Shown here in pieces: positions 1,798 to 59,904 of a stretch of DNA of 64,000 nucleotides (within the stretch, counting starts at the first letter, position 1; each line of letters starts with the position of its first letter). Under the pieces are notes generated by a model. That model ran no database searches, had not been told where the DNA came from, and worked only from the letters and a program-made list of their open reading frames with translations. Origin of the DNA: Deroplatys truncata (taxonomy: Eukaryota > Arthropoda > Insecta > Mantodea > Mantidae); NCBI GenBank assembly GCA_030765065.1, contig CM060987.1, positions 74,224,557 to 74,288,556 on the forward strand. Reading direction: 5' to 3'. Both the position numbers and the translations under genes were made by a program.

Positions 1798-1846
1798 TGT
1801 GACGCACCGGCTGCATCTAGAGTGCTGCAAGATTGAGTGTATTATA
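1798..1846 (+). repeat. Promoter-like repeat copy 1, segment 1
   Basis: The start of this segment (gtgacgcaccggct) matches the start of the second copy at about 45592 (atgacgcagcggct). The copy is then broken by the transposon at 1847-3265 and resumes at 3266. Assignment rests on short alignable blocks and on the order of the three segments, so the exact left edge is approximate. Confidence 0.45.
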
Positions 1847-2424
1847 CTCGGCGCCAATCAAGAAGGTGATTGACAGTTACTAAGCACGTGGCGGAAAGCT
1901 TTAAATGAATGGGAGGGGATGAATACGTCACAGCGGTCGTCATAGCAACCATTTGAAGGACCAATTAGAACTAAGACGTTTCCATAGTAACGATAGACGC
2001 AAATGCCTTGTTGCGATATCGTAACACGTGATTGGCATGACGTGCTGGGCGAGCGACCGTTGCAGTAAACATGAACTGCAGTCTTATCTTCTGCTGTCGC
2101 TGCAGTTATAAACAATGTCCTCCTTTTAGCCTCAGCTTGCTTATGTTTTTGTATCAGTTTAGAGATTAACTGCGTACTGAAAAGTTCTTTTGCATCGTCT
2201 TATTTGTATGGCATTTGCCTTGTGTTACGTGTGTTTGAGTCCGTGTATTTGTGCGTGCGTGTGTTGTGTGAGCATTTATAATTATGTTAACACGTTTAAG
2301 GGATATTTAATAATGTTCAAAAATAGTGACAAAGAAGCGCAGCCAAACGAAAAACTGAGCGCACTCGGGAACCGAATTAAACTGTATTTGGTAAAAGTAT
2401 CCCAATTAAAGGACAGGCGCGGGA

Positions 2425-2983
2425 AATAATATGCTCTGTGAGAGAATATTTCAAAGAGGAGAAAATAATTAGGTGGCTTGTTCGCCGCAATATACCTACC
2501 GATGAAGGAAGGACTGAAGAAAAGTGAGCTACTGGAACTTGTGAAAGCAAACTAACCGCGGTTTCCAAGTTATGTAGTCGATGGCATCGCTGCAGAACAT
2601 GGTCACAAAATAGTTAGGCTTCCCCCTTATCGCTGTCATTTTAACTCGATTGAATTAACTTTGGCGACATAAAGGGTTATGTTGGGCGAAACAATAAAGG
2701 TTTCACTGTGTCGTCAGTAATAAAGCTTACAGAAGAGGCACTAACAGCAGTAAAAGCTGAAAACTGGGAAAAAAAGCGGCGACTAATACAAAGGGCATAA
2801 GTGCAGCTTGGGAAAATGAAGGAGTTTTAGAAGAAACTATAGAACAGCTTGTCATTTCCGTGGGGAATTCTAGCAGCTCTTCATATTATGATGACGACGA
2901 CGGTGGCAACATTGTCTATCAAACGAGCAGCAACAGCAGCGATGCAAGCGATTCGGAAATCTGGCATTTTTTTCGATTAGAAT
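2425..2983 (+). pseudogene. Broken DDE_3-type transposase, catalytic core deleted
   Basis: The plus strand near 2425-2545 reads as a helical amino-terminal segment (EYFKEEK, RRNIPTDEG). From about 2608 it jumps straight to a typical carboxy end: LPPYRCHFNSIEL, whose glutamate corresponds to the last catalytic acid of this family, then KGYVGRNN, LTEEALTAV and ENWEK. It ends in an acidic, serine-rich tail before a stop near 2981. At least two frame changes break it, and the region that should carry the first two catalytic aspartates is absent. The family resemblance (IS630/Tc1/mariner DDE_3 endonuclease-like proteins common in arthropod genomes) is from recalled motif layout, not from a search. 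It cannot be functional. Confidence 0.6.
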
Positions 2984-3197
2984 AAGCATCAATATTTCAC
3001 AGGTATGTCTCTTCTGTTAACGCATATTTTTACACTGATATATTCTTGCATTTTCTGTCCTCTGCACGTAGATTCATTATTTTACAATTGTCTTCATATA
3101 TGAATATAAATAATACCCGTTCTACAATGCAGGTGCAACTCAGTCGCCTTCGACACAGTTCTAGTTCGCTCTCCACGTGGTCGCGATGAGTGGCAAC

Positions 3198-3205
<8 letters not shown>

Positions 3206-3229
<24 letters not shown>
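3206..3229. repeat. (CT)n microsatellite
   Basis: Uninterrupted CT dinucleotides, about 12 units, inside the right part of the 1847-3265 transposon. On the minus strand it makes an Arg-Glu run that inflates a spurious reading frame. Confidence 0.9.
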
Positions 3230-3265
3230 CGCGAAATGTCAATCGCCTTCTTGATTGGCGCCGAG

Positions 3266-3530
3266 TACAGTTACGGCTCGAGTTTATCGGGAAGGCGCCG
3301 ACCGGCTGTCCGGTAAGAGGTAAGCCGAAAGGATGGCGCTCTCACCCAGCGTAAACACCAGAAGCGTTATCTAGATATAACGAGATTGTTTTGAAACGTT
3401 GTTTCTCCCCTCCCGAATTCTAGAAGTCTGGAAAATTCCAACGGCTAAAATTATAGCGAGCGTTCTTGCGAATGGAGTGAGGTAGTGAGTTGCAGGTTGC
3501 GTTTCTGATGCGACATCAAGTACGGTTCTA
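3266..3530 (+). repeat. Promoter-like repeat copy 1, segment 2 (heat-shock-element region)
   Basis: This block aligns with 45620-45870: shared pieces include gcgtaaacac, ttctagaa, tggaaaatt, gcgag-gttct-gcga, gagttgc and gcgacatcaa. It keeps heat-shock-type pentamers: aTTCt-aGAAg at 3417-3426 and gGAAa-aTTCc at 3430-3439, plus tGAAa and tTTCt spaced one pentamer apart at 3392-3406. The TATA position is degraded (ttatagcgag here against tatataagcgag in copy 2). The segment ends where a Tc1-like element inserted at 3531. Confidence 0.55.
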
Positions 3531-4666
3531 CCTAGTAGGAGCATAAATATGTTACCCAACATTGCAAGTTGTACAGAGGCAAGTGAGATGGCAAGCATGT
3601 GAATGAAGACCGGTGCTTCATGCATTCAGTCTTCCAACTGCCATAGTGTGTTTTACAATTATGGAATGGGGCGAAAGAGAAAATCGAATAGCTGTTATTC
3701 CTCTATACAAAGTAGCAATAACTCATTAGAGCAATGGCGGCCAGACTACGTCGAAATTCTGTACGAAAGCAAAAAATCTTTGCCCGTGAATTGAAGGTTT
3801 CTAGACACAGCATACAACGAGTTCTACGGGATGACCTGGGAGTGAAGGCATATTATAGACGAATGGATACTTTCTCACTCTTGAACTGAAGAAAAAGAGG
3901 ATGCAGAAATCAAAGGCATTCATAAAGCGTTACGCTAATGATCAACACAGGACAATTCTTTTCACCGATGAGAAGCTATTTGACGTGGAAGAATGCTTTA
4001 ACCGAGTGCTAAACCTATCGGACGTATGCCAAGAATGCAACTATGGCTCGAGAAGTCGCTCCTCAAATCCAGAGAACCTACCATCCACAGTCTATTATGG
4101 TATGGTAGGGAGTAAGTTTCACAATTTTTGTGAAAAGGTGTGTCAAAACATCAGCAAAAGTTTACGATGAAACAGTACTTGGCCCAATTTTTCAGCAGCT
4201 TAACACACAATTGTTTCATGGATCGAATTGTACATATCAACAGGACTCAGCCCTGCACATGGAGCAAAGGCCACTCATAGCTGGTTGCGCGACAGTATTC
4301 CCGACTTCATTTCATATAGCCTGCTGCGAGTTCTCAATTAAATCCCCTTGATTACAGTCCGTGGAATGAACTTCAGAGAAAAGTGCGCAGCAAGAGGCAT
4401 CGCAATATTGATAGTTTAAAGGGTGCTATAATGAAAGAAGCGAAGGCAATTCCTTTGAAGATTATTCGTTCCAGCGTTGATGCATGGCCAGGAAGATTGA
4501 GAGCCTGTATTAGGGCTCGAGGTGCACATTTTGAAACCTAAATGTTGTAAGTACGTAATTCTGGAAACTACGTACTTCATTTTTTTCGTCAAAGATTTGA
4601 GCTAAAAATGTTTTAAACTATACTTTTCCATGTTAAACTTTTAACAGTATTTATGCCCCTACTAGG
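3531..4666 (+). mobile_element. Tc1-like DNA transposon, decayed
   Basis: Inverted ends of about 24 bp are visible: cctagtaggagcataaata at the left and its reverse complement (tatttatgcccctactagg) ending at 4666. The left flank is TA; the right flank is now CA, consistent with a point change in the duplicated TA. Length 1.14 kb. The plus-strand interior encodes a broken DDE transposase. The element sits inside the promoter-like repeat, so it is younger than that repeat. Confidence 0.7.
3735..4541 (+). pseudogene. Tc1-like DDE transposase pseudogene
   Basis: Near 3745-3840 a frame gives an amino-terminal helix-turn-helix type stretch (KQKIFARELKVSRHSIQRVL). From 3901 a second frame gives ILFTDEKLFDVEECFNR, with the first catalytic aspartate in TDEK. 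Around 4130-4270 come ETVLGPIF and YQQDSALH, with the second catalytic aspartate in QQDSA. A third frame (about 4348-4541) gives the carboxy end DYSPWNELQRKV...RHRNIDSLK and WPGRLRACIRARGAHFE before the natural stop at 4539-4541. Several frameshifts separate these parts, and the third catalytic acid lies in a damaged stretch. The order of motifs is that of Tc1/mariner-superfamily DDE transposases. Inactive. Confidence 0.7.
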
Positions 4667-4918
4667 CACAAGTGAGTTTATGACGCACAGTGGATGCTGC
4701 TTCTGCAAGATTAGAGACGTCTTGTGACCGATTCCCCAGCGAGTGAATCACCCGAAGAAGAGGTTGCTTCGCGCGTTTCATCATGCGGCGACGTCGCAAA
4801 GAAAAGTGAAGTGACAAGGAAATTTGAACTAGATCACATTAGTGAAGTGACAGTGAAAACTCGGTGAAGGGAGAGTGAGAACTGAACAAAGTGAATTTAA
4901 GTATTATACTGCATAAAG
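4667..4918 (+). repeat. Promoter-like repeat copy 1, segment 3 (GTGAA-rich leader)
   Basis: Shares ordered blocks with 45960-46260: ccgattc-cc-agcgag, gaagtga, ttgaactaga, agtgaagtga, gacagtgaaaact against gacagtgagaact, and a closing cagtat/agtatt-attgc block. Repeated GTGAA/GTGAC words make an A-rich, weakly structured leader. No open frame of a recognisable protein follows. Confidence 0.5.
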
Positions 4919-6627
4919 TTTTTGGTATGCTCAGTGTTGGTTTTGTGAAAAGGTTGATTTTGTGTAATATAGCATTCTGTTGTAAAATGAACCTACTAAT
5001 CTGAAGAAACAATTTTTGAAACCTAGTATAGTAATACTCCCCATTCCAATATTTGCAGATGAAGCACGGTTGGGCAAGGAAAGATAGCTCATCAGTTCAT
5101 CACATACATTTGAAAAATTTAAGCAAGAAGAATTAACCGATCAAAGAAATAATTTCGAGAATATCCAAAGCTGAGTAATAATCTTCATTTCAGGATGCAT
5201 GGTATAAGCAGTTTAAGTGGTTTCAAACTGTGAAAAGAAATTGAAGTTGCTCTAGGGTACAGAGAAAATAAAGTTATGCATTTTCTTTTTCATGTTGAAA
5301 GCATTGTATTTACGTCCGTAAACTATGAAAGTAGCAGTTCCTCATTTTGTTAGTCAGATATTTGACTACCGAAACAAGAAACATCTCACTGTGTTTTGCT
5401 CAATGCATTTAGTCTTCCGACTTATGTGGCATAATTGCTAGCTTTGCACTGCTTCCTCTAGCTTGGCAGTCATCATAGGCCGCATGAAGTTTATGTACAC
5501 TTTTATATTGTGCCATTGATATTGCTGAGGTTTGAAAGTGAGAAACACTCTTAAGTAGAACAAATACGCCAGTAGTAATTCTATGAGGGTTCTAATTTTT
5601 GACACATGTACGAATATAAAATCCCTGTCCCTCTACAGACATGACCTGGCTATAGCCCTGGCATGATATATATGCCAAGATAAATAACATGTGCGTAAGG
5701 TTTTAATAGCTCATGAAATCCTCCATACCTTCAAATTTTTTCTATCTAGAAAACTCTAAAATGTATGCAAAACTCTTGTGCAAGAAGTATGTAGAACTCA
5801 TTAAAACATACATTAAATGCTAAGTAACTTTTTTGTGAGATTAAATATTTGCTGTTGTTCATTTGAATGAACCAGTATTCCAAGCAATACACTCAGAAAT
5901 GTTAAGCAACTCTTCTGTCTCTTATCAGCTCAAAGAGTATGTATTATCAAGACTTACATATTCAAATTGCTTTTAACAGTTCCATCGTGCTTGCCTGTGC
6001 CTTTGTACCTATATCAACGTTAGTATTGAAACCATCTTTGTGTGTGAATAGTTGTCATGTTAGTACTTACAAAAATGAAAATAATTTGTAGAAGTATATT
6101 GAAAATAAATTTCAATGGGTGGAGAGTCATGATATTTGTTACTCATCAGATAATTCCTGTCATATTAACAACAGCATTTTGTATGAGGATTACATATTCT
6201 AAGTTTCAGAACACCAAACAAAATGGGGGGGGGGAGAAAGAAAAACTTTGGTGCGGAATCTTGCATATTGCTGTAGCTGGTAGGGCAAACCACCATTTTG
6301 TAGGCTGCCTATGACTAATGAACTAGCCATCATACTACGCATGAAACTCTTTATAAGCGATTAAAGACATGAGCACAGAATCGTAACACGATGGTACTTG
6401 TGAATCCAGAACGGCAACATTTCATGATGAATAGGGGCATGTACTAGTTTAATTAACTGTCTTTGCTATCGGTATTCATATCGAAAATAATTAAACATAT
6501 AATAACATGAACAAATATAATTTCGAATATCATCAGTTTGCTGCAAAACAAAATATGACTGAAAGAAACATTTAACTTTGTACATTCTCCATCTTTATTG
6601 CTACATATTTTAGTGGATTTTAAGTGT
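4919..6627. other. AT-rich intergenic stretch, no gene recognised
   Basis: No domain motifs, transposon ends or tandem repeats stand out. The open frame at 6057-6314 contains a GGGEKEK stretch from a G tract and has no other support. Confidence 0.5.
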
Positions 6628-7589
6628 TGGTTCACAACAGCCCGAAAACGATAACCAAAACGGAAACAGAACGGGAAGCAATGCAACATAAGATTTTGGT
6701 TCACAACAACCCGGTAACGAGAACGGTAGTTCATATCGATGACAAAGTGGAAAGTCGATTTTGCGCATTGGGAATTTATTTGTTTTTAACTGACCAATGC
6801 TATTTTTTCATCTACTTCCAATTCATCCAACATAATGCGGGAGAGCCAACCTCAAAGTTCGACAGAGTAAACATTATCTAAATGCATATTCTAGTCGTAC
6901 CAAGCTTTCATTCCTGTATTTAATGGCATACATTAAAGTATATTTTTCTTTGTTAATTTCCACCTGATTTTGCCATTCCTTATAGTTTTTGCCATTGTTT
7001 CTGAGGCAATAGCCAGTTTTGAGTTGCATATAAATAAACTACAGGTGACCCTTTCACTAGGAGAACCATCGCATGGTGGATTTGCGGATGTTAGGATCTG
7101 AGCACAGCCAGCTTTAAGGAAGTCGACGGTTTGGCAACTCAGCCCGAACTTCAACTAGTCGGCTGGGACAACGCATTGAACATTTATTTATTGCTTGCCT
7201 TTTGTATACGTTACGTATAGGAACTGAAATGTTTGGTGACATATTTAGTAGTTCGCAATAGCACACCGCAACTAAATGGTAATCATCATTGACTTTCGCT
7301 CTACCTTACGCCTAATGCGTTTATTACCACTCATTAATCCTTTAATGCAATAACCTCGTAATACGGTAATACAATCATGAATATTAATATATCTACAAGG
7401 ATAATTGAGTAAATTCAGTTTCCTTAGAAATTTACTTAAGTTGTATCCCATTTGCTTAAGATTGAGATATTGGGTACAGCAAATAATACATATAATTTCT
7501 CATTTTCAGAACTACTGAATTGTTTTGTCAGATCTGAGGATTGAAGGAAAAGGATTAAAGGTTATTAAAAATAAAGAATAATAACTTTT

Positions 7590-45530: not shown

Positions 45531-45706
45531 TGACTCATTTGCACATTGTGAGTTTTCCTTGTGGTTTTTAATTACGACCATCCTCGTATTATGACGCAGC
45601 GGCTATGGCCCAAGGTTAAAGGGAGGTCGGCGCCGGGCTGTCGGTGTAAACGACGATAAGTACCGCTCGCTAGCGTAAACACTGGGCGCGCTGTCAGCAG
45701 ATAATC

Positions 45707-45726
45707 AGAACCTTCTGGAAGTTTCC
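45707..45726 (+). promoter_or_regulatory. Heat-shock element, four perfect pentamers
   Basis: The sequence is aGAAc-cTTCt-gGAAg-tTTCc: four contiguous, alternating nGAAn/nTTCn units without a mismatch, the consensus binding site for a heat-shock factor trimer. It lies 58 bp upstream of the TATA box. Confidence 0.75.
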
Positions 45727-45750
45727 CACTCCAGAACGTGTGCCCAAATA

Positions 45751-45765
45751 GTTCTAGAATGTTCT
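45751..45765 (+). promoter_or_regulatory. Heat-shock element, three perfect pentamers
   Basis: gTTCt-aGAAt-gTTCt, three contiguous units, ending 18 bp before the TATA box. A fourth GAA follows out of phase (gtggaa). Confidence 0.75.
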
Positions 45766-45783
45766 GTGGAAAATTGCACTGCC

Positions 45784-45791
45784 TATATAAG
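45784..45791 (+). promoter_or_regulatory. TATA box
   Basis: TATATAAG, directly downstream of the heat-shock elements. Transcription would start near 45813-45820; arthropod-type TCAGT initiator words occur slightly later at about 45830-45838. Confidence 0.65.
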
Positions 45792-46506
45792 CGAGTGTTC
45801 TCGCGAGAACAAAGTTGAGTTGAGTTGCGTCAGTCAGTGAGCGAGCGAGTTGGCGGGTGAGTTTCCGTGCGACATCAATAAAAATTAATATTTATGAAAT
45901 ATTTTACTTGACAAAAAACAGAATTTGAAATATTATAATCATCATTCCGCTTTTTAAAGAAAATTGCATCCGCACCGATTCTCCGAGCGAGTTGGCAACG
46001 ACTGTTGTGACGGGGAGTGAGTGCTACTGCTGAGAGTCTGGTTGTGGAGGTCGTGCGTTCGACTCCGGCGTGTGTTCAATACCGTCCGGCGTGAAGAGGC
46101 TTACGTCACGAAAGAAGCGAAGTAACGGATAATTGAACTAGTTCACTGTAGTGAAGTGAACTCCCAGTGAAGTTGAACTAGATAAGAACTTAGAACAGTG
46201 ACAGTGAGAACTGGGAGAAGTGACAGTTGAAAAACTGGACTGTCACAGTATATTGCTTGAAATGAAATATCCGCAGCTTACGTCTTACTTTTACGTGCAT
46301 TTTCTGTGGAGTAATAACTGATTTCTGCTTTATGCCACTCTCAACGAAAATCAAAGCCACCTTCGCAAGTATGTTCTCTTACGACTACAGCATCCTCATT
46401 TTAATATTAGTATTCCAGGCCTTGTAGATCTCTCCCCCTCTCCATTTCAGAATTAGTTGAGTGGTTTCCGAGAGTACCCTATATACAGTGAAGGAGAAAT
46501 TACTAC

Positions 46507-49741: not shown

Positions 49742-51031
49742 CGAGGTCGGCTAATAAGTCCCGGGCCTCTCAATGAAAACAACATTAAATTATCTTTTTT
49801 TTATTATTTCTCAACATAATCTCCAGAAAGGTTAATACATTTGTCATACCGGTGTTCTAATTTAATTAAACCATCTCTGTAGTGCGATTTATCAAGGTCC
49901 TCAAAATAGCTGTTTACCGCATCAATGGCCTCCTCGTTGCTGTGAAATCTTCGTCCTCCAAGAAATTTTTTGAGATTAGGGAACAGGTGGTAATCACTGG
50001 GTGCTAGATTTGGCGAATAGGGTGGATGTTCAAGCAATTCGAACTTTAATTCGCAAATTTTCCCCATTGCAATGGCTGAACGATGGGCCGGAGCATTGTC
50101 GTGATGACACAACTTTTTTTTTTCTTTCTTCCAATGAGGTCTTCGTCTTTTCACCTCATCATTCAAACGTTACAGTAAGCTTGCGCAGTAGTCACCAGTG
50201 ATACTTTTACCCTTTTCCAAGTAATCAATAAAAATAATTCTCTGTGCATCCCAGAAAACACTCGCCATAACCTTGTTAGCTGACAAAATTCACTTTGTCT
50301 TTTTTGGAGTTGGTTCACATGACGCAGTCCACTGTTTTGACTGTGATTTACTTTCTGGAGTGTAGTGATGTATTCAGGTTTCATCCATGGTAATAAGCCG
50401 TCTCAAAAATTCATTGGGGTTATTACGGTAGAGCTCCACATTCTTAACAGAAACAGTTTTTCTGTGCAACTTTTGACCAGGTGTCAACAAACGCGACACC
50501 CACCTTGCACAGACCATGTGAAAGCCCAAAACATTATTTTAAATATTACCTGATATGTTTGATACGCTTACAGCCTCTGATATCTCAAGCAACTTTATTC
50601 TGCGGTCTTCCAGTACTAAACGATGAATTTTTTTCAATCACCTCTGGAGTTGTGACTTCCACAGGGCGTCCAGAGCGAGGCTCATCACTAGTGCTCGTAC
50701 GTCCCATTTTAAACTCTGCAACCCACCTTTTAATCAATGATTATGGAGGGACAGAGTCTTTCAATGTACTGTCCATTACCTGCTTAATTTCTTTAGGTTT
50801 TAAGCCTTTCAAATAGAAGTATTTAATCACTGCTCGTTTTCCAAATCCTCCATTTTCGTGAAAACCCTAAAGTTGTCTTGTTTAAAATGCTGTCATTCAA
50901 AAATGAAACAAGCTATTGACCCGTAACTATGGATACAAGCTAGTCTAGAGTAAAACTGTACGATGCTACCGTCTAACTGGCCTAGTGGCGCCATCTCTGT
51001 GTGAGGCCCGGGACTTATCAGCCGACCCTCG
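49742..51031 (-). mobile_element. mariner element, full length, with intact ends
   Basis: Terminal inverted repeats of about 28 bp: cgaggtcggctaataagtcc at the left; the right end in complement begins cgagggtcggctgataagtc. Both continue cccgggcctc. TA duplications at 49740-49741 and 51032-51033. The 1.29-kb length is standard for mariner. The transposase is on the minus strand and broken, so the element is inactive unless mobilised in trans. Confidence 0.92.
49804..50860 (-). pseudogene. mariner transposase pseudogene
   Basis: Minus strand from about 50857: an amino-terminal helix-turn-helix (KYFYLKGLKPKEIKQVMD), the conserved [20 protein letters not shown] linker, [36 protein letters not shown], then MDET with the first catalytic aspartate near 50365. 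VMASVFWDAQRIIFIDYLEK follows. HHDNAPAHRS (second aspartate) lies near 50105-50075 and YSPNLAPSDYHLFPNLKKFL (third aspartate, D34D type) near 50025-49965. The frame stays open from 50166 to the stop at 49804, but upstream there are an in-frame stop and several single-base indels. All three catalytic aspartates survive. The subfamily was not determined. Confidence 0.85.
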
Positions 51032-58200: not shown

Positions 58201-58254
58201 TTTAACAATCAATAAATGGAAAGGTAGAATCAGATGACTGAAAAATTCAATGCC

Positions 58255-58326
58255 ATAGCCGGGATTTGAACCACGGATCTCCCGGTCTCCGTCCGGTTGC
58301 TCTAACCACTGAGCTACCATGGCAAC
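58255..58326 (-). repeat. tRNA-like unit, minus orientation
   Basis: In complement it reads gccatggtagctcagtggtt (A box), then a gagaccggg anticodon arm and ggttcaaatccc (B box), closing with ctatggc. The acceptor stem pairs over seven positions, but the T stem has mismatches and the anticodon loop lacks the expected T at position 33, so it is tRNA-derived rather than a tRNA gene. Confidence 0.6.
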
Positions 58327-58619: not shown

Positions 58620-58692
58620 TTGCCATGGTAGCTCAGTGGTTAGAGCAACCGGACGGAGACCGGGAGATCCGTGGTTCAAATCCCGGCTATGG
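58620..58692 (+). repeat. tRNA-like unit, full plus copy
   Basis: Same tRNA-like unit as at 58255-58326 in direct orientation, preceded by gtgccggcatgttgccatgg. Box A and box B are intact, so RNA polymerase III transcription is possible. Confidence 0.6.
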
Positions 58693-59145
58693 CATTGAAT
58701 TTTTCAGTCATCTGATTCTACCTTTCCAACCCTGTCCAACACACGGCTTGTGTGAAAGAACAATTAATTCCAATCAATAAATGGATCGACAATTTAGCAA
58801 TTAAATAGCTCTGATATAAAATTCATTTCCCCCATATACTTGAATACAAGAATTTAAACCACATTGCTTTTCCGCCTTTTGCTTCGTGAATCTCTCCCTT
58901 GATCTGTAGAACGACTTCAGAATACCGTGTGTAAAGGGGAAGTATAATTTGGATTAATTTACTTAAAAATGTTTTTCATAAATTTAGAAAGGGCCGAAAT
59001 AATTCACCACATTTTAAGAGTGCATTCTCCTGTCCTCCCTCCGCTGCCAGAATAAAGCTAGCCGCTCTCTCTTCACCGACCTAATCCGGAACCTGCTCGC
59101 AGTAGTACACACCACCAGGCTGCGCCCACGGGATTGAAGATGTTG

Positions 59146-59385
59146 CGTCCAATGAGTTGCTTGCGGCAGAAGGTTCTGGAAACGGGACCAGTTTGTTATG
59201 GTCACCAAAAGGCGGCCGCCATAGACGAAAAATCTCGTACAAAACTGTGAGGGGGGCCGTACAAACGTCCAATGAGTTGCTTGCGGCAGAAGGTTCTGGA
59301 AACGGGACCAGTTTGTTATGGTCACCAAAAGGCGGCCGCCATAGACGAAAAATCTCGTACAAAACTGTGAGGGGGGCCGTACAAA
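59146..59385. repeat. Perfect tandem duplication, 2 x 120 bp
   Basis: Units 59146-59265 and 59266-59385 appear identical base for base. They are GC- and CpG-rich (ggcggccgcc, gaggggggccg) in contrast to the surroundings. The paired reading frames on both strands are by-products. The flank at 59010-59145 has the same composition and probably belongs to the same unidentified sequence. Confidence 0.9.
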
Positions 59386-59904
59386 CTGGTACACATTACA
59401 ACCTTTCCTTGAATAAAGTATGCAAAGCTTTTAATTTTCTAAAAGGTAGTCATGTATTAAATTGCTAAAACCCAAATTTCGAAAGTATAAGTGGCAAAAA
59501 TATAAGAAGACAAGATTAAGAGAAAATTTCTTTAAAATTTATTATCCAGAGTCCTTAGTGAGCTATGCAATGTTGTCCTACCTACGCGCACAGAGTGCTA
59601 GTAATGACAACCTCTTTGAGTTTTACACAGAAAATGGTTTTTCATTCAATTTAGTTGTTTATCAACCAAGAAACGTTATAAAATCAGTTGCGATTTTTTC
59701 ATATAAAGTTGAGTTAAAGGTGTAATAATAATCATACCTCGACAGCAGCGGTGATTGGTTGAAATTTAAGCTACCATATCAAAATGTCCGCATACAAACG
59801 GAATAAGCTAAAGGAAACCTCTCAAAATATCATTTCTGTTTTGCTCCAATGATTCGAGTTGTTATAGTTAGAAGTTCCCTATATTGCTATTCCGGAGGCC
59901 CGCT

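Follow-up and report, generated by a model that had tools for sequence, protein, structure and literature searches.

The window, the whole 64,000-nucleotide stretch of DNA analysed, contains at 45590-46247 a sequence whose anatomy identifies it as an LTR of a retrotransposon and not as an hsp promoter (Table 1). A search of the genome (4.29 Gb in 818 contigs) with 45590-46262 returned 9603 first-look candidates, and the 40 that were scored matched the window LTR at 80-84% identity in their main pieces, bearing out the description of the region in the original prediction as a dispersed repeat. The copies align to bases 1-289 of the query and resume at about base 387, indicating that the window copy has an insertion of ~97 bp that the other copies compared lack. 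The flanks differ between copies while the copy ends coincide (TGTGACGCAG ... GTCACA); the window LTR begins with TATGACGCAG, where most other copies have TGTGACGCAG, its last bases are GTCACA, and the termini TGTGAC..GTCACA of the LTR copies compared are of the TG..CA type. Analysis of the ends of 47 copies, 33 of them usable and 14 with unresolved ends, revealed a perfect 4-bp duplication in nine of the 33, the window copy included (about 0.13 expected by chance), and a 4-bp duplication with one mismatch in nine (1.5 expected by chance). The duplicated sequences were mostly GTAT, ATAC or ATAT. As no match to the internal region of the element was found within the 64-kb window, we classed this copy as a solo LTR.

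Table 1. Features of the window LTR and of the split sister LTR (positions in the window).
Feature	Position	Strand	Basis or remark
5' target-site duplication GTAT	45586..45589	+	GTAT on either flank
Solo LTR, 658 bp including the ~97-bp insertion	45590..46247	+	Ends, duplications, related copies
HSE array 1 (4P, four units in a row), AGAAC CTTCT GGAAG TTTCC	45707..45726	+	
HSE array 2, three contiguous units (3P), GTTCT AGAAT GTTCT	45751..45765	+	
Decayed third HSE pair, GGAAAATTGC	45768..45777	+	
TATA box TATATAAG	45784..45791	+	18 bp past array 2
Predicted R/U5 region with GTGAA/GTGAC-rich leader, split by the insertion	45792..46247	+	Sequence common to other LTR copies; TATA box stands in for the transcription start
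AT-rich insertion, ~97 bp	45879..45975	.	Absent from other compared copies
3' target-site duplication GTAT	46248..46251	+	Pairs with GTAT at 45586
Sister LTR, possible block 1	1798..1844	+	First 15-18 bases only resemble LTR start
Sister LTR, block 2, U3/R with two-unit HSE remnants	3268..3525	+	Best E 6e-19 to other LTR loci
Sister LTR, block 3, U5 part	4672..4918	+	Best E 2e-37 to other LTR loci

The promoter parts that had been described for this region, four contiguous alternating pentamers, three more, and a TATA box downstream of these, were all found in place. When the window was simulated with a first-order Markov model, about 2% of the simulations contained a four-unit run, and none of 300 combined such a run with a three-unit one 20-60 bp away. 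The leader rich in GTGAA and GTGAC words is also present and is common to the family, but it is part of the LTR and not of an hsp mRNA, and the ~97-bp insertion interrupts it. Elsewhere in the window, 59150-59390 holds two tandem copies at 120-bp spacing (59169 and 59289), each with AGAAGGTTCTGGAAA, a perfect three-unit HSE; assignment of this pair to the same LTR was considered and rejected, as it is one tandem duplication unmatched by LTR probes.

Examining 45 LTR copies, most of them chosen by similarity to the window copy, we found that the longest contiguous alternating run was at least two units in all 45, at least three in 37 and four in 19, compared with a shuffle mean of 0.13% for runs of at least three units. 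The mean majority of the TATA columns across the family was 0.94, and conserved pentamers with a TATA box are found in genomic copies other than that of the window. Four of five LTRs belonging to loci reached via the internal region (L042, L043 and L044) likewise carry arrays of at least three units. Array 1 starts about 73-98 bp before the TATA box and array 2 about 23-43 bp, mostly 34 bp, and a two-unit pair lies 17 bp upstream of the TATA box in 27 of the 45 copies. Some other copies have a longer array 2, of four or five units; an insertion of 9-10 bp extends it in phase to four units in L034, in L038 and in one of the L044 LTRs. As for the earlier suggestion of an LTR under heat-shock control, its LTR anatomy and the family-wide HSE arrays and TATA box stand, and the heat control itself is predicted.

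Paired LTRs were found at five loci, where LTR sequence flanks a short internal region; L027 and L044 have two full or near-full LTRs, L007, L042 and L043 have incomplete ones, and L019, L033 and L035 hold pieces of the internal region only. A purine tract resembling GAGGAGGGAGC precedes the 3' LTR in all five two-LTR loci, and a PBS-like TGGTGTCAGGAGG, so called for likeness of the site with no tRNA assigned, follows the 5' LTR in two of them (L027, 13/13; L042, 12/13) and was not recognised in the other three. What follows the LTR in two-LTR loci is a gag-like frame or an integrase stub: the internal region of L007 and L027 carries a lysine/glutamate-rich gag-like frame and then an integrase H2C2 remnant, the latter scoring E 0.0014 and 19.1 bits, below the Pfam cut-off of 25.5, and no reverse transcriptase was seen in the internal regions besides these two. 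When the internal region of L044 served as query, the junction of the gag and integrase stubs was spanned within one piece by 38 of 39 non-self places at 74-80% identity, these being among the best 40 of 2138 candidates, a selection that favours the junction-bearing form. No autonomous partner with reverse transcriptase was seen among the scored matches to the L027 and L044 queries. A short internal region common to many copies and flanked by LTRs marks the family, on structural grounds, as a short non-autonomous LTR retrotransposon, which probably belongs to Ty3/Gypsy. L027 also contains, within 5172-6463, a SINE-like insertion of ~285-300 bp; since this sequence is 93-96% identical at many loci, it is much younger than the LTR family.

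A second, split copy of the module had been placed between 1798 and about 4918. The blocks at 3268-3525 and 4672-4918 are indeed LTR-related, but the assignment of 1798-1844 is weak, with no match at E 1e-4 to other LTR loci. The joined blocks show 62% identity over 497 aligned columns, and the middle block yielded 1247 first-look candidates, of which 39 non-self places were scored at 73-80% identity. Given that the HSE pieces of this copy have two units only (ATTCT AGAAG; GGAAA ATTCC) and that its TATA-like element is ATTATAG, it is not a second 'textbook' promoter. Its blocks mark it as a sister LTR that has diverged and that two DNA transposons, with TIRs of 34 nt and 24 nt, have split. The nested transposons occupy 1845-3267 and 3526-4671 and, as judged by eye, have TA flanks and Tc1/mariner likeness. 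The window further contains an open frame at 49804-50169 on the minus strand that by eye resembles the C-terminal portion of mariner transposases, and two predicted tRNA-Ser (GGA), one on the minus strand at 58250-58324 and one on the plus strand at 58621-58695, separated by about 300 bp.

To judge the age of the family we considered the identities between copies and between paired LTRs. Searches with the window LTR, the L044 internal region, the sister block and a 4P+4P copy revealed no near-identical copy among the 40 places scored per search. The best non-self identity of main pieces was 84% for the window copy, with short pieces of 53-94 bases at 85-89% (40 scored), 82% for the 4P+4P copy (40 scored) and 80% for the L044 internal region, with one 50-base piece at 86% (best 40 of 2138); matches of 90-96% to the L027 query were the inserted SINE or one 87-base piece. 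The LTR pairs of the five two-LTR loci gave K2P values of 0.14-0.21, and if insects accumulate about 3e-9 changes per site per year these would correspond to some 23-35 million years. The best main-piece identities of 80-84% and the K2P values of the LTR pairs gave no sign of recent activity, and by these measures the copies examined are old. CpG columns of U3 decay faster than the rest (majority 0.832 vs 0.895), which suggests germline CpG methylation. The scored places cluster on contig C16 (707 of 4290 Mb), where 24 of 40 places for the internal region (best 40 of 2138) and 18 of 40 and 12 of 40 for LTR probes were located, about 6.6 being expected by size; the concentration perhaps reflects low recombination or a sex chromosome.

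With a probability of roughly 85%, we interpret 45590-46247 as an old solo LTR from a retrotransposon that was non-autonomous and probably of the Ty3/Gypsy group, and the U3 of which is a heat-shock promoter with a 4P and a 3-5P array near the TATA box. The best reading of the family is that it was once a heat-inducible LTR retrotransposon, an arthropod counterpart of the plant element ONSEN. In a stressed host, heat-shock factor (HSF) trimers would bind to the arrays and have the LTR transcribe the element; an autonomous relative would supply the proteins that reverse-transcribe this RNA and insert it, mobilising the element in trans; recombination between LTRs would later leave solo LTRs, and the family presumably became extinct.

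The arrays could instead have served another factor, or reflect a bias towards GAA and TTC, so that the LTR was never heat-responsive, an explanation we consider improbable. It would fit the modest conservation within the close family, where the HSE core was only weakly better kept than other U3 columns (0.923 vs 0.884, p 0.024) and not significantly so when CpG columns were left out (0.923 vs 0.895, p 0.11). Comparison across subfamilies argues against it. Mean identity at 26 loci was 0.889 for the core of array 2, 0.846 for the TATA box, 0.585 downstream and 0.559 for the inter-array spacer, with an upstream value of 0.752 that is raised by the way in which the 26 were taken from 35 LTR loci, via array 1 and upstream context. 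A second array of at least three units is present in 14 of the 26 loci, compared with 1 of 2600 shuffles, and the downstream array of three units is missing in 12. Arrays of 3, 4 or 5 units persist on either side of a spacer of variable length. The better preservation of array 2 and the TATA box than of the spacer across subfamilies points to arrays that were functional in source elements and later decayed. Moreover, the position of the arrays near the TATA box resembles that of insect hsp HSEs, given as 30-115 bp before the start (PMC4717527).

Further evidence against a sequence bias came from the genome as a whole, in which the perfect 4P pattern occurs at 7219 sites compared with 652 when its letters are reversed, an 11-fold excess relative to this composition-matched control; the exact 19-mer of array 1 occurs at 274 genomic sites and its reversed control at none. 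Using probes in which the promoter (HSE and TATA) was masked, we assigned 35 of 44 sampled 4P loci, comprising 41 of 50 sites, to this LTR, the sample comprising the 50 sites listed first, which fall between 16.3 and 37.4 Mb of contig C1. Of the nine loci not assigned, one (L103) has a match at E 7e-12 to the block of the sister LTR when nothing is masked. The masked probes detected none of 32 reversed sequences and five of 88 window tiles; four of these contain the two known LTR copies, one being detected via the sister copy's own probe, and the other 84 tiles gave one weak match. This LTR family holds most of the perfect 4P HSEs sampled on one chromosome, and a genomic parasite may thus have been a large-scale source of heat-responsive DNA. 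If 41 of 50 held genome-wide, an extrapolation from that chromosome, about 5,900 of the 7,219 4P sites would be LTR-borne.

It had also been proposed that the module is an hsp-type promoter duplicated or transduced without its gene, and a related possibility is an LTR that captured an hsp70-type promoter; we regard both as very unlikely. The genome gave 59 HSP70-family matches, none at the place of the window, and five full-length frames, one with a stop. Within about 850-900 bp upstream of each of the five, a single three-unit HSE was found in three promoters, a two-unit pair in one and none in one. The layout is alike, in that an HSE array starts 36-40 bp before the TATA box in three of the five (three units in two, at 40 bp, and two units in one) and LTR array 2 starts mostly at 34 bp, but the hsp70 promoters have at most one three-unit array (three of five) and well-kept LTRs have 4P plus 3-5P. 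In addition, a AGAAACGTGT word stands 3' of a TTCnnGAAnnTTC array in three of the five hsp70 promoters, with a similar CAGAA(A)nGTGT in nine of 45 LTR copies, and three of 16 copy-promoter pairs surpassed most HSE-kept shuffles (L012-L061, reached by 2/400; L012-L063, 4/400; L010-L062, 3/400). Averaged over the 45 copies, however, the LTR showed no similarity beyond HSE and TATA to the four hsp70 promoters covered by the test (L061, L063, L064 and L062; L065 was left out): shuffles in which HSE and TATA were kept reached the observed similarity in 235, 228, 84 and 43 of 300 cases, respectively, and under a second scoring scheme in 198, 216, 104 and 64. Capture based on the shared CGTGT word and the L012 and L010 alignments was rejected on this negative averaged test. 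The anatomy is that of an LTR. A plausible origin of the arrays is duplication of a shorter HSE, by analogy with the HSE gain described for ONSEN (PMC5059998).

The 4P, 3P and TATA columns together were intact in three of 45 copies, where 3.19 were expected under neutral decay, the three including the window copy, which was picked as intact, and L008, which passes as intact only through an alignment gap, its array 1 having three units in register. Comparison of these 45 copies with the neutral-decay expectation gave no sign that single copies are protected, and selection on the window copy is unsupported, intact copies being no commoner than neutral decay predicts. Also very unlikely is co-option of the window copy by the host, with a gene nearby using it as its heat-inducible enhancer or promoter, to which the intact state of both its arrays and its TATA box would lend itself, but against which stand the frequency of intact copies just given and the lack of any gene recognised close downstream in the sequence and ORF list.

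We compared the heat-shock LTR with known systems. The LTR of Arabidopsis ONSEN/COPIA78 carries four adjacent nGAAn units (4P), the class with the strongest heat induction; ONSEN is bound by HSFA2 and heat-induced, and its HSE number varies among relatives (PMC3907296, PMC5059998). The family studied here is likewise an LTR retrotransposon with a 4P cluster in its LTR and a varying number of HSEs, and the ONSEN-kind arrangement of a 3P or 4P HSE upstream of TATA within an LTR is found in it, the 37 of 45 copies with at least three units included. Unlike ONSEN, which is of the copia type, from a plant and HSF-bound, it is an arthropod element, probably Ty3/Gypsy, non-autonomous and old, with a predicted heat response; its LTR carries a stack of two arrays, and its copy number is extrapolated to thousands. 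ONSEN solo LTRs and fragments in A. thaliana are described as without functional HREs or heat response (PMC5059998), and a present-day action of the window solo LTR is therefore not to be assumed. Drosophila copia and gypsy are also arthropod LTR retrotransposons with predicted HSF sites, and heat induction of copia expression is reported (PMC3907296, PMC10745035), but their listed HSF sites are weaker, being single matches (PMC10745035). The HIV-1 LTR is an animal retroelement LTR for which the use of HSF1 and of a heat-shock element has been described, although HIV-1 is an exogenous retrovirus (PMC4870680, PMC9367301). A transposable element group that holds most HSEs of an animal genome has a parallel in the Helitrons of Caenorhabditis, which carry almost two-thirds of C. 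elegans HSEs with reported HSF-1 recruitment and heat induction (PMC6927752); those are DNA transposons, whereas the arrays here lie in an LTR promoter adjoining a TATA box.

A partial literature search by title and abstract, which is no proof of novelty, found no case of 3P or 4P arrays in the LTR of an animal retrotransposon, and in the literature compared strong 4P HSEs in retrotransposon LTRs have so far been a plant story, that of ONSEN and its relatives. That the stacked arrays (4P and 3-5P) outlasted changes of the spacer across subfamilies suggests that animal retrotransposons hijacked HSF independently. Should most 4P sites of the whole genome lie in this LTR, as those sampled on one chromosome suggest, it would provide a natural test of transposons rewiring or titrating the heat-shock response. 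A far-reaching possibility, which we consider doubtful, is that this ancient family gave the genome most of its high-affinity (4P) HSF sites (~6,000 of 7,219), that these rewired or titrated the heat-shock response in the active phase of the family and perhaps still do, and that the host's control of its heat-shock response therefore evolved under pressure from an element out-competing the weaker 3P hsp70 promoters.

A separate observation from the genome searches concerns TTAGG, the arthropod telomere unit, which in arrays gave 28,607 overlapping matches compared with 13 for the reversed control, as would suit an arthropod genome; one TTAGG array of at least 400 bases lies about 15 kb short of the end of contig C1.
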